Source of the DNA: a virus
DNA length: 43,103 nucleotides
Strand: one strand, 5' to 3'
Virus record (IMG/VR): IMGVR_UViG_3300009154_004367
Span: 1-43,103 of that record
This document shows positions 2,874-17,183 of the stretch, one piece after another (the stretch's first letter is position 1; each line of letters begins with the position of its first letter). A program made the position numbers and the translations under genes. The notes under the pieces are model-generated. The model saw only the letters and a program-made list of their open reading frames with translations. It did no database searches and was not told the DNA's origin.

Positions 2874-3074
2874 ATGATTAACCAATCCTTTGTAGTTAAA
2901 GATTTTGAGAATGAAGAGACTTATGAGTTTTATCTAATCAGTGAGAATAACTGGTTGGGTAAGCGAGGAGATAAAGAAGTTAAACTAGAACAACAAGATG
3001 TTGAGGGGCATTATGACTACTTCACCTCTCACTGGCAGGATTATGATGTGACGCTTCTGGAACCGGCACAGTAA
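2874..3074 (+). CDS. Hypothetical protein, 66 aa
   Basis: Begins MINQSFVVKDFENEETYEF; acidic, mostly beta, Trp/Tyr-rich C-terminal half (HYDYFTSHWQDYDV). No family recognised. Its last codons lie within the next hairpin/promoter module, so the C-terminus (LLEPAQ) is encoded by regulatory DNA. Confidence 0.72.
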   Translation: MINQSFVVKDFENEETYEFYLISENNWLGKRGDKEVKLEQQDVEGHYDYFTSHWQDYDVTLLEPAQ

Positions 3075-5499: not shown

Positions 5500-5727
5500 A
5501 TGCAAAATCAAATGCCTGAAACTCTCGCTGATTTCATTCTTCTGCTGACTGCTGCTAAAGAAAAGTATGGTAATCTGAAAGTTCGCTACGTTTTCGAATC
5601 TGGTAATGTTGGTGATAGTGATGAGTATAATGAGTTTGAAGATATTGTGATTGCTGGAGGTGTTGAATCTCTTGTTCGCAGTAATCAATCTTCGGATAAT
5701 GAGCGTTATTTCCTGTTTGTGAGATAA
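5500..5727 (+). CDS. Hypothetical protein, 75 aa
   Basis: MQNQMPETLADFILLLTAAK and onward; an in-frame ATG at 5512 is an alternative start. The alpha/beta pattern ends in a strand (NERYFLFV). A 28-bp tandem duplication (5695-5750) sets the stop. Without the second copy the protein would end FVNR instead of FVR, so the C-terminus has recently changed by a residue or two. Confidence 0.75.
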   Translation: MQNQMPETLADFILLLTAAKEKYGNLKVRYVFESGNVGDSDEYNEFEDIVIAGGVESLVRSNQSSDNERYFLFVR

Positions 5728-5750
5728 TGAGCGTTATTTCCTGTTTGTGA
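5695..5750 (+). repeat. Perfect 28-bp tandem duplication
   Basis: The 28 bp at 5695-5722 (beginning GATAATGAGCGTTATTTCCT) are repeated without change at 5723-5750. The first copy is coding; the second is mostly past the stop it creates. No divergence, hence recent or a sequencing/assembly artefact. Confidence 0.9.
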
Positions 5751-10330: not shown

Positions 10331-10375
10331 ATGGAGAAGATTAAATCTAAGTCTTCTTACACCACTACACAATGA
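10331..10375 (+). CDS. Possible 14-codon leader peptide upstream of the Toprim gene
   Basis: Starts after ACGAAAA at 10331, reads MEKIKSKSSYTTTQ and ends in the ATGA that starts the next gene (10372-10375). Its start context matches the neighbouring genes. Inference: translation of this peptide could couple initiation of the Toprim protein. Chance occurrence is possible. Confidence 0.35.
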   Translation: MEKIKSKSSYTTTQ

Positions 10376-10908
10376 GGTATAGAAACAACATTAAAGAACA
10401 TCTTCTAGAGAGACATCTAAATCTAGAACTTCATCACCCAGTTTTAGATTTAGAATTGAATATTGCGACTTTCTATTGTTATAATCTATCAGGTCAAATT
10501 GTAGGATATCAGCAGTATAATCCTAATGGAGATAAAAAGATCTTCAATTCTAAACTAGAAGGAAGGTATTATACTTATCGTAAACTACCTACAGTTTCTC
10601 TATTTGGAACTGAAAGCTTATATCAATCTAATGGTGTTATCTATTTAACGGAAGGAGTATTTGATGCTGCGCGAATGACTAATGTAGGTCAATCTGCACT
10701 TGCAACTTTAACTAATAATCCACCTAAAGATTATAAGAATTACTTGCAAATGTTAGGTAGACCTATTGTTGTAGTATGTGATAATGATAGTGCAGGAAAA
10801 CAACTCTTGCCTTATGGTGATTATGTAGAAGTTGTTCCTGATGAGGTTAAAGATCTAGGTGAAGCTCCTAATGATTATATTCAGTATCTTTTAAGTAAGT
10901 ATGAATAA
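10372..10908 (+). CDS. Toprim-domain primase-like protein, 178 aa
   Basis: Residues about 88-165 form a Toprim fold: a strand and acidic motif IYLTEGVFDAARM (Glu94), then IVVVCDNDSAGKQL (Asp137, Asp139), then KDLGEAPNDY in the position of the third acidic motif. The N-terminal 80 residues (GQIVGYQQYNPNGDKKIF) resemble the RNA-polymerase-side part of phage primases, but there is no zinc-binding domain and no helicase. T4 gp61 primase is 342 aa, so this is a reduced or accessory protein. It may act in primer synthesis or in nicking/recombination. It is the last gene before the repeat-rich region with DnaA-box sequences, which supports a replication role. Confidence 0.82.
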   Translation: MRYRNNIKEHLLERHLNLELHHPVLDLELNIATFYCYNLSGQIVGYQQYNPNGDKKIFNSKLEGRYYTYRKLPTVSLFGTESLYQSNGVIYLTEGVFDAARMTNVGQSALATLTNNPPKDYKNYLQMLGRPIVVVCDNDSAGKQLLPYGDYVEVVPDEVKDLGEAPNDYIQYLLSKYE

Positions 10909-10921
10909 ATGTTAAATTAAA

Positions 10922-10974
10922 TGGTATAGTATGTTGTGGAAAAGCTGTGGAAAAGTGTTGAATATTGTGGAAAA
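10922..10974 (+). other. Three phased cyanobacterial DnaA-box sequences behind an extended -10
   Basis: TGTGGAAAA occurs at 10935-10943, 10946-10954 and 10966-10974, with starts 11 and 20 bp apart (about one and two helical turns). The reverse complement, TTTTCCACA, is the DnaA-box consensus described for cyanobacterial oriC. TGGTATAGT (10922-10930), an extended -10 sequence, lies 4 bp upstream. Inference: a host-DnaA binding cluster, as an origin or as a repressible promoter. Confidence 0.6.
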
Positions 10975-10987
10975 CTAAAGTAAGTTA

Positions 10988-11098
10988 TGTGATACTATAA
11001 ACCTTTTTTAAACGTTTCTTTTAATCGTCATCTAATCGTTTATAAATGCTTTAGGTTATGCTATTCTAAACCTTTTTTAAACGTTTCTTTTAATCGTC
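10988..11098 (+). repeat. Two 32-bp direct repeats, each behind an extended -10
   Basis: The 32 bp at 10998-11029 and 11067-11098 are identical: TAAACC, a T-run, the palindrome AAACGTTT, then CTTTTAATCGTC. Each copy is immediately preceded by a TG-n -10 box: TGTGATACT (10988-10996) and TGCTATTCT (11059-11067). The repeats are 69 bp apart. Inference: two tandem promoters with the same 5' leader. Confidence 0.7.
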
Positions 11099-11171
11099 GT
11101 CCAGGATTTCTATAATTATATCACACCACTCCTTCACTGTCAAGTATTTCCTCCAAACCCCTTATCACCAC

Positions 11172-11200
11172 TTGACGAATACTCCGAATGATGCTACACT
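11172..11200 (+). promoter_or_regulatory. Sigma-70-type promoter
   Basis: TTGACG (11172-11177), 17-bp spacer, TACACT (11195-11200) with an extended TGC just before the -10. It is the best full promoter in the non-coding region. It points right into a stretch without a + strand gene, ending at a terminator-like hairpin at 11439-11480. Confidence 0.65.
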
Positions 11201-11515: not shown

Positions 11516-12075
11516 GGATACGTGGGGAGGTTCGTTATTCTTACTAGGCAGCAGTGATTCACTTCGTGTTAATCAGCGCCAGGATGTAACAAACACCTTC
11601 GTCTTTAATCCTTCCCAGTTATAGTTACAGCTTCGTCATTAAATCTTCTTATGAATGGGAACTTCGTCATTAGCAGTACTAAATACTTCTTCACTTCGTC
11701 CTGAAAGCATTATACTCAGATGTCGTGAGTAACATCGTCTTGATGTACTTTTCATTTATTGTTTACATCGTCTATTCACAGTTATTTCGTTATTTGGATA
11801 CGTGGGGGAGGTTCGTTATTCTTACTAGATAAGGGTTACACACTTCTATACATTTGCCTCTGTGTATAGAGAATAGAGGACAACTCTTCGTTTATTCTTT
11901 ATACTGAAAGATACAGTTATTTCGTTATTTGGATACCTGGGGGAGGTTCGTTATTCTTACTAGATAAGGGTTACACACTTCTATACATTTAGTGCTAAAT
12001 GTAGCAAATAGCAGTTAATTCTTCGTTTATTGTTATAGCAGTCTAATCGTATTCCTTCGTTTATTGTAATCGACA
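11516..12075 (+). repeat. Array of TTCGT/TCGTC motifs with three longer repeats
   Basis: No gene is visible. Short motifs of the form CTTCGTCATTA, ATCGTCT or CTTCGTTTATT occur near 11531, 11562, 11598, 11632, 11662, 11695, 11735, 11767, 11786, 11812, 11887, 11921, 11947, 12022, 12046 and 12056, often 30-36 bp apart. Three copies of a longer block (GGATACGTGGGGGAGG then TTCGTTATTCTTACTAG) begin at 11517, 11796 and 11931. Stem-loops are evident, for example TGATTCAC-TTC-GTG-TT-AATCA near 11555. It may be iterons for a DNA-binding protein or a large structured RNA. Confidence 0.6.
11778..11990 (+). repeat. Pair of 78-bp near-identical repeats
   Basis: 11778-11855 and 11913-11990 differ at one base as read (CGTGGG versus CCTGGG), with starts 135 bp apart. 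Each runs directly into a hairpin of different sequence: TCTATACA/TGTATAGA after the first, and TACATTTAG-TG-CTAAATGTA after the second. Confidence 0.85.
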
Positions 12076-12157: not shown

Positions 12158-12254
12158 TTGCTAACCACTTGTAGATATATAAATTTCTGAAAAATTTTTG
12201 AGAAAGGCTCCATTGCTAACCACTTGTAGATATATAAATTTCTGAAAAATTTTT
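12158..12254 (+). repeat. 42-bp direct repeats (two copies, 55-bp period)
   Basis: 12158-12199 and 12213-12254 are identical: TTGCTAACCACTTGTAGA, then TATATAAAT, then TTCTGAAAAATTTTT. Both carry TATATAAAT, close to a T4 late promoter core, and an A-tract/T-tract junction typical of bent or easily melted DNA. Confidence 0.85.
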
Positions 12255-12368
12255 CCGAGAAGTTAAAACCATTTTTTGTAAAGTAAATTCCTCAAAAATT
12301 TTTCCGAGAAGTTAAAACCATTTTTTGTAAAGTAAATTCCTCAAAAATTTTTCCGAGAAGTTAAAACT
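12255..12368 (+). repeat. 49-bp tandem repeats (two full copies and a partial third)
   Basis: 12255-12303 and 12304-12352 are identical; a third copy starts at 12353 and breaks off after about 15 bp. The unit begins CCGAGAAGTTAAAACCA and ends CCTCAAAAATTTTT. Very AT-rich; a possible DNA-unwinding element. Confidence 0.88.
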
Positions 12369-12410
12369 GTTTTTCTCTATATAATTCTTGGTAAGACTAA
12401 TTAAAAGAAA

Positions 12411-12607: not shown

Positions 12608-13366
12608 ATGACGAAGGGATTTACTGTAAAGGCAAAACTTCCAGAGAAGGGGCCAAATGAAAATGAATTTGATCTTCAAGCTGCTAAAGATATGGTGCGG
12701 GGTAAGACAGTAGTGTTCTGTCTACCTGGCCGAGGAGTATCTTATACTTACTTGAAGAATTTCGTTCAGTTATGTTTTGATTTAGTTTCCAATGGAGTAG
12801 GAATTGCGATTCAACAAGATTACTCTTCAATGGTAAACTTTGCTCGTTGTAAGTGTCTTGGAGCAAATGTATTGAGAGGGCCAGATCAATTACCTTGGAA
12901 CGGTCAGCTTGAGTATGATTATCAACTTTGGATTGACTCTGATATTGTTTTTAATACTGAAGTGTTCTATCGTTTGGTTGCGATGGATAAGGATATTGCT
13001 TCTGGATGGTATCTTACAGAAGACCGTAAGACTGCTTCGTGTGCTCACTGGTTGGAAGAAGATGACTTTAAGAACAATGGGGGCGTAATGAATCACGAAA
13101 CGATTGAGACCCTTCCTAAGCGTCGTAAACCGTTCACAGTAGATTACATTGGATTTGGTTGGACGTTGATTAAAAAAGGAGTCTTTGAGAATCCAAAGAT
13201 GACCTATCCTTGGTTCGCACCTAAACTTCAAGTTTTTGGAAATGGTGAAGTTCAGGATATGTGTGGAGAAGATGTGTCGTTCTGTTTAGACGCAATCGCA
13301 GCAGGTTATGAGATTTGGGTGGACCCTCTTAGTAGAGTAGGTCACGAAAAAATGGGAGTTATTTGA
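12608..13366 (+). CDS. GT-A-type glycosyltransferase, 252 aa
   Basis: Residues 33-75 form the first nucleotide-binding strand and helix (KTVVFCLPGRGVSYTYLKNF). DYQLWIDSDIVF carries the DxD motif (Asp110, Asp112) that binds metal and nucleotide sugar. Near the C-terminus GEDVSFCLDAIAAGYEIWVD matches the catalytic acidic E-D motif of GT2-like enzymes, followed by a His (RVGHEKMG) suited to metal binding. Sugar and acceptor cannot be told; phage enzymes of this kind may modify DNA, virion proteins or host glycans. It has its own extended -10 promoter at 12565. Confidence 0.82.
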   Translation: MTKGFTVKAKLPEKGPNENEFDLQAAKDMVRGKTVVFCLPGRGVSYTYLKNFVQLCFDLVSNGVGIAIQQDYSSMVNFARCKCLGANVLRGPDQLPWNGQLEYDYQLWIDSDIVFNTEVFYRLVAMDKDIASGWYLTEDRKTASCAHWLEEDDFKNNGGVMNHETIETLPKRRKPFTVDYIGFGWTLIKKGVFENPKMTYPWFAPKLQVFGNGEVQDMCGEDVSFCLDAIAAGYEIWVDPLSRVGHEKMGVI

Positions 13367-14889: not shown

Positions 14890-15291
14890 ATGGCGATCAC
14901 AATATCAAGAGGATTTAAGGATATTAGCTTCTCCTTTTCAAAAAATCCAATCACAAATGATATTTTAGTTCTTCAAAATGAAGATGCGATTAAAAAATCT
15001 GTAATAAATTTAGTTCGTACTCAAATTGGGGAGAGGTTCTTCAATAGTTTAATTGGGTCCTCTCTTGAAAAATCACTATTTGAATTAAATACTGAAGAAA
15101 TAGCATCATATATTGATGAAGAAATCACCAACTTATTAAATAACTTTGAGCCAAGAATTAGAGTAAGAGAAGTGATGGCTGAGCCAGAGTATGATACAAA
15201 TGATTTAAATGTGAAAATACAATATGATATTGTTGGCCTTCCTGTTCCGACACAAAATATAGAATTTTTACTTCAACCCACTAGGCTATAA
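14890..15291 (+). CDS. 25: Baseplate wedge subunit gp25
   Basis: 133 aa, the same size as T4 gp25 (132 aa). Typical gp25/GPW features: an N-terminal strand pair (ISRGFKDISFSFSKNPITND), then DAIKKSVINLVRTQIGERFF and the turn FFNSLIGSSLEKSLFEL, and a C-terminal beta sheet. gp25 is the lysozyme-like wedge component that contacts the sheath initiator side of the baseplate. Its stop shares one base with the gp6 start. Confidence 0.93.
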   Translation: MAITISRGFKDISFSFSKNPITNDILVLQNEDAIKKSVINLVRTQIGERFFNSLIGSSLEKSLFELNTEEIASYIDEEITNLLNNFEPRIRVREVMAEPEYDTNDLNVKIQYDIVGLPVPTQNIEFLLQPTRL

Positions 15292-17183
15292 TGTCATTCA
15301 ATCAGTTTACGAATTTAGACTTTAATAGTTTAAGAACCCAAATTAAAGACTACTTGAGAGCAAACAGTAATTTTACTGATTTTGACTTTGAAGGGTCTAA
15401 TTTTTCAGTATTGATTGATACTCTAGCCTATAATACTTACATTACCTCCTTTAACACCAATATGGCTGTTAATGAGAGCTTTATTGATAGTGCTACATTA
15501 AGAGAGAATGTAGTATCATTAGCAAGAAATATTGGTTATGTACCTCGTTCAAAAAGATCAGCTCGTGCGATTATAAGTTTTTCAGTTAATACTTCAGCAT
15601 TTGATACAAATAAAAATATTAGAAATATTACATTAAAATCAGGAGTTGTTGCTCTTGGTTTAGTTCAAGGTGGAAGTTTTATATTTTCAATTCCAGATGA
15701 TATTACAGTTACAGTAGATGAAAATCAAAATGCATACTTTAATAATATTGAAATTTATGAAGGATCATATTTAACCAAGAATTTTAATGTGAATAGTGGA
15801 ACTCCAAATCAAAAATTTGTAATTCCAAATCCCAATGTTGATAGTACAACAGTAAGAGTGCGAGTAATCACTAACGTAACAGAAGAATATCAACAGTTTG
15901 CAAATATATTTAAGGTTGATAGTAATACAAGAATGTATTTACTTCAGGAAGTATTAGATGAAAAGTATCAAATTGTTTTTGGAGATGATATTCTAGGTAA
16001 AAAACCTGAAAATGGAGCAGCAATATTTGTAAGTTATATTGTTACCAATGGAACTTCAGGTAATGGTGCAAGAAATTTTAGTTTCTCTGGAATTCTTAAG
16101 GATAATAATGATAATGTAATTACAACAGGTATCTCTCTTGTAACCGCCATACAGGCGTCTGAAAATGGTGATGATATAGAACCATTAGATAATGTAAAAT
16201 ACCTCGCTCCAAGGGTGTATGCATCACAATACAGAGCGGTTTCATCTAATGATTATAAGAGTTTAATTCCATTCCTATTTTCAAATGTAGAATCTGTAAG
16301 TGCATATGGAGGAGAAGAGTTACCGACTCCAGAATATGGAAAAGTTTTTATATCAGTGAAGCCAAAGAATGGAACTTTTATTTCAAATGCAACTAAAGAT
16401 AGAATTTTAAAACAACTCAAGACATATTCAATTGCTGGAATTAAACCTCAACTAGTAGATTTAAAATACCTTTATGTAGAATTAAGTTCATCGGTATACT
16501 ACAATAAGAGTAAAGTAAATAATTTAGACAGTTTAAGATCAAGTGTAATTAATACAATTACACAATATGCAAAATCTTCTGATTTGAATGTGTTTGGAGG
16601 AAGATTTAAGTATAGTAAAATGACTTCATTAATTGATAATACTAGCAATGGTATTACATCAAATATTACTACAGTTAAAATTAGAAGAAATCTATTTCCA
16701 GTAGTGAATAAAAATGCAACTTATGAAATCTGTTTTGGAAATCGTTTTCATATTAAAAAGTCAAACTCAACTGATGGTGGAGGATATAATATAAAATCTA
16801 CAGGATTTAAAATTAAAGATAATTCAAATACATTATATCTTGGAGATACTCCAACTTCAGATAAAGAAGGAGTGCTATTCTTCTTTAAAATTGTAGATCA
16901 AACTCCAGTTAATGTGGTCGCAAATGTAGGAAAAATTAATTATCTAAAGGGTGAGATTATATTAAATTCTGTTGTATTCACTTCATTTGATGGAGCTGAA
17001 ATACAAATTGAAGCAGTTCCAGAATCAAATGACGTTATTGGGTTGAGAGAGTTATATCTTCAACTAAATACGACTAATCTAAACGTTCAAATGGTAGAAG
17101 ATACTCTTGCATCAGGCTATGACCTATCAGGCAAAAGTTATACAGTATCTTCCAGTTATACTAACGGTTCTTTCATAAGATAA
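15291..17183 (+). CDS. 6: Baseplate wedge subunit gp6
   Basis: 630 aa against 660 in T4. The N-terminus (NFTDFDFEGSNFSVLIDTLA then YNTYITSFNTNMAVNESFID, ATLRENVVSLARNIGYVPRS) is the conserved gp6/J-like baseplate signature. gp6 forms the inner ring of the baseplate that holds wedges together. Downstream residues (QLVDLKYLYVELSSSVYYNK) match the conserved second half. Order gp25-gp6 is as expected for cyanomyoviruses. Confidence 0.93.
   Translation: MSFNQFTNLDFNSLRTQIKDYLRANSNFTDFDFEGSNFSVLIDTLAYNTYITSFNTNMAVNESFIDSATLRENVVSLARNIGYVPRSKRSARAIISFSVNTSAFDTNKNIRNITLKSGVVALGLVQGGSFIFSIPDDITVTVDENQNAYFNNIEIYEGSYLTKNFNVNSGTPNQKFVIPNPNVDSTTVRVRVITNVTEEYQQFANIFKVDSNTRMYLLQEVLDEKYQIVFGDDILGKKPENGAAIFVSYIVTNGTSGNGARNFSFSGILKDNNDNVITTGISLVTAIQASENGDDIEPLDNVKYLAPRVYASQYRAVSSNDYKSLIPFLFSNVESVSAYGGEELPTPEYGKVFISVKPKNGTFISNATKDRILKQLKTYSIAGIKPQLVDLKYLYVELSSSVYYNKSKVNNLDSLRSSVINTITQYAKSSDLNVFGGRFKYSKMTSLIDNTSNGITSNITTVKIRRNLFPVVNKNATYEICFGNRFHIKKSNSTDGGGYNIKSTGFKIKDNSNTLYLGDTPTSDKEGVLFFFKIVDQTPVNVVANVGKINYLKGEIILNSVVFTSFDGAEIQIEAVPESNDVIGLRELYLQLNTTNLNVQMVEDTLASGYDLSGKSYTVSSSYTNGSFIR

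Follow-up and report, generated by a model that had tools for sequence, protein, structure and literature searches.

Phased host-type DnaA boxes upstream of the baseplate genes in a subset of T4-like cyanophages, a candidate replication origin

The window analysed here is a complete virus record of 43,103 bp, which contains a non-coding region of 1.5 kb with three copies of the 9-mer TGTGGAAAA and several families of repeats. The three boxes lie at 10935–10943, 10946–10954 and 10966–10974, all on the + strand and at offsets of 11 and 20 bp, exactly as a sequence-only reading of this DNA had described them. Just upstream, outside the element itself, is a small Toprim/primase-like gene (10372–10908, + strand; 178 aa), whose product matches PHROG 849 (E 1e-34) and, below Pfam's cut-off, Toprim_2, so that the primase-like neighbour noted earlier is real. 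The genes located 3′ of the array include a glycosyltransferase-like gene (phrog_1574; 12608–13366, + strand), hereafter w12608, which is the anchor of the conserved locus described below, a SAM-decarboxylase-like gene, and the baseplate wedge genes 25 and 6 (14890–17183, + strand), which are its landmark. Such a gene content identifies the record as a fragment of a cyanophage of the T4-like group. No tRNA was found in the window. Elsewhere in it, we observed a remnant of a TnpB/Cas12f-like zinc-ribbon C-terminus (2632–2814, − strand; scoring slightly under Pfam's cut-off), with no full transposase gene apparent, and a perfect 28-bp tandem duplication that ends a small ORF (5695–5750). Moreover, a 90-nt intergenic module is dispersed at 3030, 4028, 5095, 7500, 8306 and 9731, with a related copy near 85; it consists of a hairpin (GTGTGCCA..TGGCACAC) followed by the extended −10-like TGTGGTATTCTAGAGGAG and is reminiscent of the cassettes of promoter and stem-loop in other large phages.

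The flanks of the array were compared with those of its nearest relative, L004, in which the Toprim protein is 94% identical. Directly 5′ of the boxes, an A+T-rich stretch (10906–10934), 26 of whose 29 bases are kept in L004, is a weak candidate for an unwinding element. Duplex stability beside the array lies at about the 14th–20th percentile in the window and at the 1st–5th in L004, i.e., the adjacent DNA is not unusually unstable in the window but is so in L004, while the 5′ flanks are slightly A+T-richer across arrays (P 0.004). On the 3′ side come two copies of an A+T-rich 43-bp direct repeat (10990–11032 and 11059–11101, + strand), of which L004 has a multiplied version, AAACCTTCTTTAATGTTTCTTT, also 3′ of its array. 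A perfect sigma-70 promoter, TTGACA-17-TATAAT (11115–11143, − strand), points leftward, through both repeats and towards the array; its counterpart in L004 is TTGACT-17-TATACT. Along that strand, its transcript meets no ORF of at least 40 codons within the first 1.1 kb. Divergent from it is a rightward promoter-like site, TTGACG-17-TACACT (11172–11200, + strand), weak alone with 9 of 12 matches. The same non-coding region holds 13 strand-biased, YTTCGTYATT-like TTCGT repeats (11531–12060, + strand), and four A+T-rich direct repeats with AAAAATTTTT cores follow at spacings of 55, 49 and 49 (12163–12374, + strand). The TTCGT repeats, dense on one strand 3′ of the array (13 vs. 2 in this region), also occur in L004, L019, L024, L027, L040, L050, L055, L070, L125 and L168–L170; in L168 and L169, they are present without DnaA boxes. 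Finally, a search for structured RNA downstream returned no Rfam hit, and the sequence folds no better than its shuffles (z −0.12). As for the extended −10 promoter that had been placed at 10922, its letters (TGGTATAGT) are there, but L004 has TGGTATTTA instead; DnaA control of this promoter was rejected because the nearest relative does not conserve it.

The three boxes are the only exact copies of TGTGGAAAA in the record, both strands counted, and all fall within 40 bp in one orientation, which refutes a random scatter of the motif elsewhere in the window. Their number by itself is weak evidence (0.84 expected, and at least three in 5 of 100 shuffles), while the chance of such clustering, for three given boxes on one strand in this span, is about 4e-7. 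In L004, the three boxes recur at exactly the same offsets, with 27 of 27 box bases identical to those of the window, whereas the spacers and the 3′ flank together keep 11 of 24 (Fisher P 5e-6). The boxes are under purifying selection in this comparison, the spacers having drifted. The tie between the array and the Toprim gene, on the other hand, was rejected as incidental: boxes are missing next to its more distant relatives (L005–L013, about 60–76%), and a Toprim neighbour is missing from most other arrays.

When IMG/VR was scanned by DNA pattern (three direct copies of TGTGGAAAA with gaps of 0–30), at least 120 viral stretches were recovered, compared with 17 for the reversed motif. Many of these stretches are unrelated to cyanophages; phased TGTGGAAAA arrays are found in unrelated viral contigs, some of them high in G+C (L021, L030, L043, L053, L061, L067, L071, L083 and others), and arrays of DnaA boxes may be widespread among phages. 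Among the matches listed, 51 carry homologues of the anchor genes (w12608, gp25, gp6 and neighbours), and in all 51 the array is found upstream of the baseplate genes 25 and 6, most often 0.7–2.5 kb before the w12608 homologue. A motif-blind sample of 80 loci, fetched with the w12608 protein alone, has 46 boxes at −0.5 to −4 kb, compared with an expectation of about 2 derived from 200 permuted motifs, and a single one within 6 kb downstream; TGTGGAAA is among the commonest clustered 8-mers at these loci. In IMG/VR contigs of 100–205 kb, boxes are nearly confined to the cluster (e.g., 4 of 4 within 65 bp in a 107-kb contig), which is thus, as in the window, essentially unique in its replicon. 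One 284-kb contig, behind L055 and L095, bears two different arrays and two w12608/baseplate loci, and is probably two phages joined in one record.

Besides T4, 21 complete named cyanophage genomes were scanned for exact box pairs less than 60 bp apart. Such pairs exist in six of the 21: S-SM2 (58.06 kb), P-TIM68 (58.2 kb), DSL-LC02 (24.4 kb), Syn9 (52.6 kb), S-PM2 (19.2 kb, three boxes) and S-RIM8 (41.4 kb). Each of these pairs is located 2–8 kb upstream of gene 25, with no further exact pair in the 21 genomes, and the product of the chances of these positions is about 5e-9 for a position range chosen post hoc. No close pair of TGTGGAAAA occurs in T4. In S-PM2 (NC_006820, 19177–19333), a tRNA-Asn and a tRNA-Leu are annotated over the array, where ARAGORN finds no tRNA; this annotation is likely shifted. 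The array belongs to a subset of T4-like cyanophages and most relatives are devoid of it: exact-box clusters occur in just 5 of the 41 motif-blind loci having at least 2 kb of upstream DNA and in 6 of the 21 named phages, and thus the family can do without it. Alternative boxes with a TGTGGA core, considered as substitutes, were rejected, as they form no clusters in the array-less relatives. Upstream of the w12608 homologue in L173, L174, L178, L224 and S-SRM01 (L159), clustered palindromic CTCGTCGAG/TCTCGACGA repeats replace the DnaA boxes and are perhaps the site of a different initiator.

Across 66 distinct arrays, same-strand boxes are offset by 11/12, 20–22 and 32 bp, which corresponds to one, two and three turns of the helix (Rayleigh P about 1e-36, a value inflated because the loci are related and non-independent). 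In a frequent layout, one inverted box is followed after 56 or 79 bp by boxes at 21, 11 and 22. Promoters that match the sigma-70 consensus at 11 or more of its 12 bases reach 1.46/kb within 250 bp of arrays vs. 0.18/kb elsewhere, an approximately eightfold enrichment (P 2e-15); there is often one outward-reading promoter per side, though distance (30–240 bp) and direction relative to the array vary widely. Altogether, phased host-type DnaA boxes in non-coding DNA, a few kb upstream of genes 25 and 6 and accompanied by strong early promoters, are a conserved cis-element of this subset of cyanophages. TAG-type DnaA-trios were found beside 1 of 37 arrays only, in a search that degenerate trios would escape; several host genomes do have DnaA-trios. 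The GC-skew change anticipated at the array was not seen, the skew there following the one-sided coding direction; because almost all genes are on one strand, GC skew is uninformative as an origin marker.

Which protein would bind these boxes? The motif had been taken for the cyanobacterial DnaA-box consensus, and it does equal the published TTTTCCACA, the DnaA box of Synechococcus elongatus, Anabaena and Cyanothece; DnaA binding was demonstrated for the Cyanothece boxes, and the boxes were confirmed in Anabaena (PMC4674748). In 30 genomes of the picocyanobacterial family Cyanobiaceae, TGTGGAA ranks with the 7-mers most often repeated before dnaN (50 copies vs. 1 for the reversed control); the exact 9-mer precedes dnaN in 11 of the 30, and some clusters before dnaN (G040, G087) share the array offsets of 12 and 21–22. 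Host genomes also hold exact box pairs away from dnaN. A DnaA C-terminal domain is encoded in none of 11 array-bearing phage records. Host DnaA is thus very probably the natural ligand of the array, and the best reading of the latter is a predicted docking site for this protein. Recruitment of host DnaA, the core of the sequence-only reading, is strongly suggested by the purifying selection, the helical phasing, the conserved locus, the match to host oriC and the lack of a phage DnaA, while its other parts (the Toprim link, the 10922 promoter and the GC-skew change) fail.

Two alternatives would do without DnaA. A chance cluster of an A+T-rich 9-mer might be entertained, three copies per 43 kb not being rare by count, yet the clustering, the conservation, the fixed locus and the reversed-motif control all contradict it, and the comparative data already leave it a negligible probability. 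It is also conceivable, albeit improbable, that the array provides operators or iterons for a phage-encoded protein and resembles DnaA boxes by chance: iteron systems with their own initiators are common, and this locus holds short clustered repeats of a different kind in other phages (e.g., CTCGTCGAG). However, the boxes exactly match the host oriC box and published DnaA-bound boxes, as a family-specific operator should not. If host DnaA is the ligand, titration is a further candidate, in which multiplying phage copies would soak it up and stop new rounds of host replication, in a datA-like manner. High-consensus box clusters in a multiplying replicon without its own DnaA are in line with this idea, but 2–8 boxes per genome are few at infection, and titration would need neither a fixed baseplate-side locus, nor helical phasing, nor attached promoters; we regard it as slightly more improbable still than a phage-encoded ligand, both being less likely than the two readings that follow.

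We estimate at roughly 0.5 the probability that the array is a replication origin, at the place of T4 oriE, rather than the seat of another DnaA function. A DnaA-assisted origin is favoured by the positional match to oriE, by the absence from cyanomyoviruses of MotA and AsiA, which the T4 oriF/oriG route requires (PMC2984593), and by the prediction of a single theta origin for Syn9, for which the review reporting it names no sequence element (PMC2984593). Early in infection, host DnaA would bind the array, bend the DNA and load on it; it would then help to open the neighbouring A+T-rich DNA, either alone or with an R-loop from the adjacent early transcript, and the opened DNA would admit the phage helicase and primase before replication turns recombination-dependent. 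Against an origin stand the absence of a GC-skew switch, the scarcity of TAG-type DnaA-trios, the flank in the window, which is not markedly unstable, and the lack of an array in most relatives. The main rival, which we consider less likely than an origin but which persists because arrays are strongly linked to promoters, is a switch in which host DnaA, sitting on the phased array, would repress or activate the divergent sigma-70 promoters beside it and thereby time early transcription, without any replication start. The eightfold enrichment of near-consensus promoters, often outward on each side, would fit such a switch, as would the perfect promoter into the array of the window, conserved in L004, and the host box pairs away from dnaN; it is weakened by the variable distance and direction of the promoters, by the non-conservation of the one at 10922, and by the leftward transcript of the window, which offers no obvious gene to control. 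Returning to the DnaA-assisted origin, we tentatively propose, with less confidence than for the origin itself, that a T4-like lineage put an oriE-position origin under host DnaA control and that, given the other repeats at this locus in relatives, the initiator may be an exchangeable module, with phage replication coupled to the replication state of the host.

T4-like cyanophages are major viruses of marine picocyanobacteria. Chromosomes and plasmids are known to have origins with DnaA boxes, and such origins have also been predicted in individual phages (e.g., PMC11512268); in the open-access literature, we found no report of these boxes for cyanophages or T4-like phages. An array at a fixed genome place suggests that some viruses of photosynthetic bacteria borrow the replication starter protein of their host; if true, phage replication would be tied to host DnaA and hence to host replication control. 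The array makes the question of where replication starts in T4-like cyanophages directly testable in the culturable S-PM2, Syn9 and S-SM2.

Among known systems, T4 oriE is similar in lying upstream of gene 6 and in combining phased short repeats with an early leftward promoter, on which it depends (PMC3016281). The T4 annotation places it 1.7 kb upstream of gene 6 and gives it a primer RNA that runs leftward, antisense to the series of genes. In contrast to the array, its repeats are 24-bp units inside the coding sequence of gene 5, and a kinship between these iterons and DnaA boxes was rejected for this reason; the repeats of the array differ from T4-type iterons, and the ORF list of the window holds no homologue of repEA or repEB. 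In T4 (NC_000866, about 79.4–79.6 kb), the direct repeats of the oriE region keep a 24-bp period within gene 5, and these "iterons" may simply be coding repeats of the gp5 beta-helix. As at T4 oriF and oriG, a promoter next to A+T-rich DNA could prime by R-loop, which is putative for the array, but these T4 origins need MotA promoters, and cyanomyoviruses are devoid of motA (PMC2984593). Iteron plasmid origins with DnaA boxes likewise unite boxes, A+T-rich DNA and direct repeats in one non-coding region; in the array region, however, no Rep initiator was recognised, the sole neighbour being the Toprim/primase-like gene, which is not conserved there. Finally, cyanobacterial oriC, upstream of dnaN, shares with the array the identical 9-mer, its clustering and, in some Cyanobiaceae, the offsets of 12 and 21–22 bp, whereas the phage array has no dnaN or dnaA neighbour, TAG DnaA-trios or skew switch, and comes instead with strong sigma-70 promoters and phage repeats attached.
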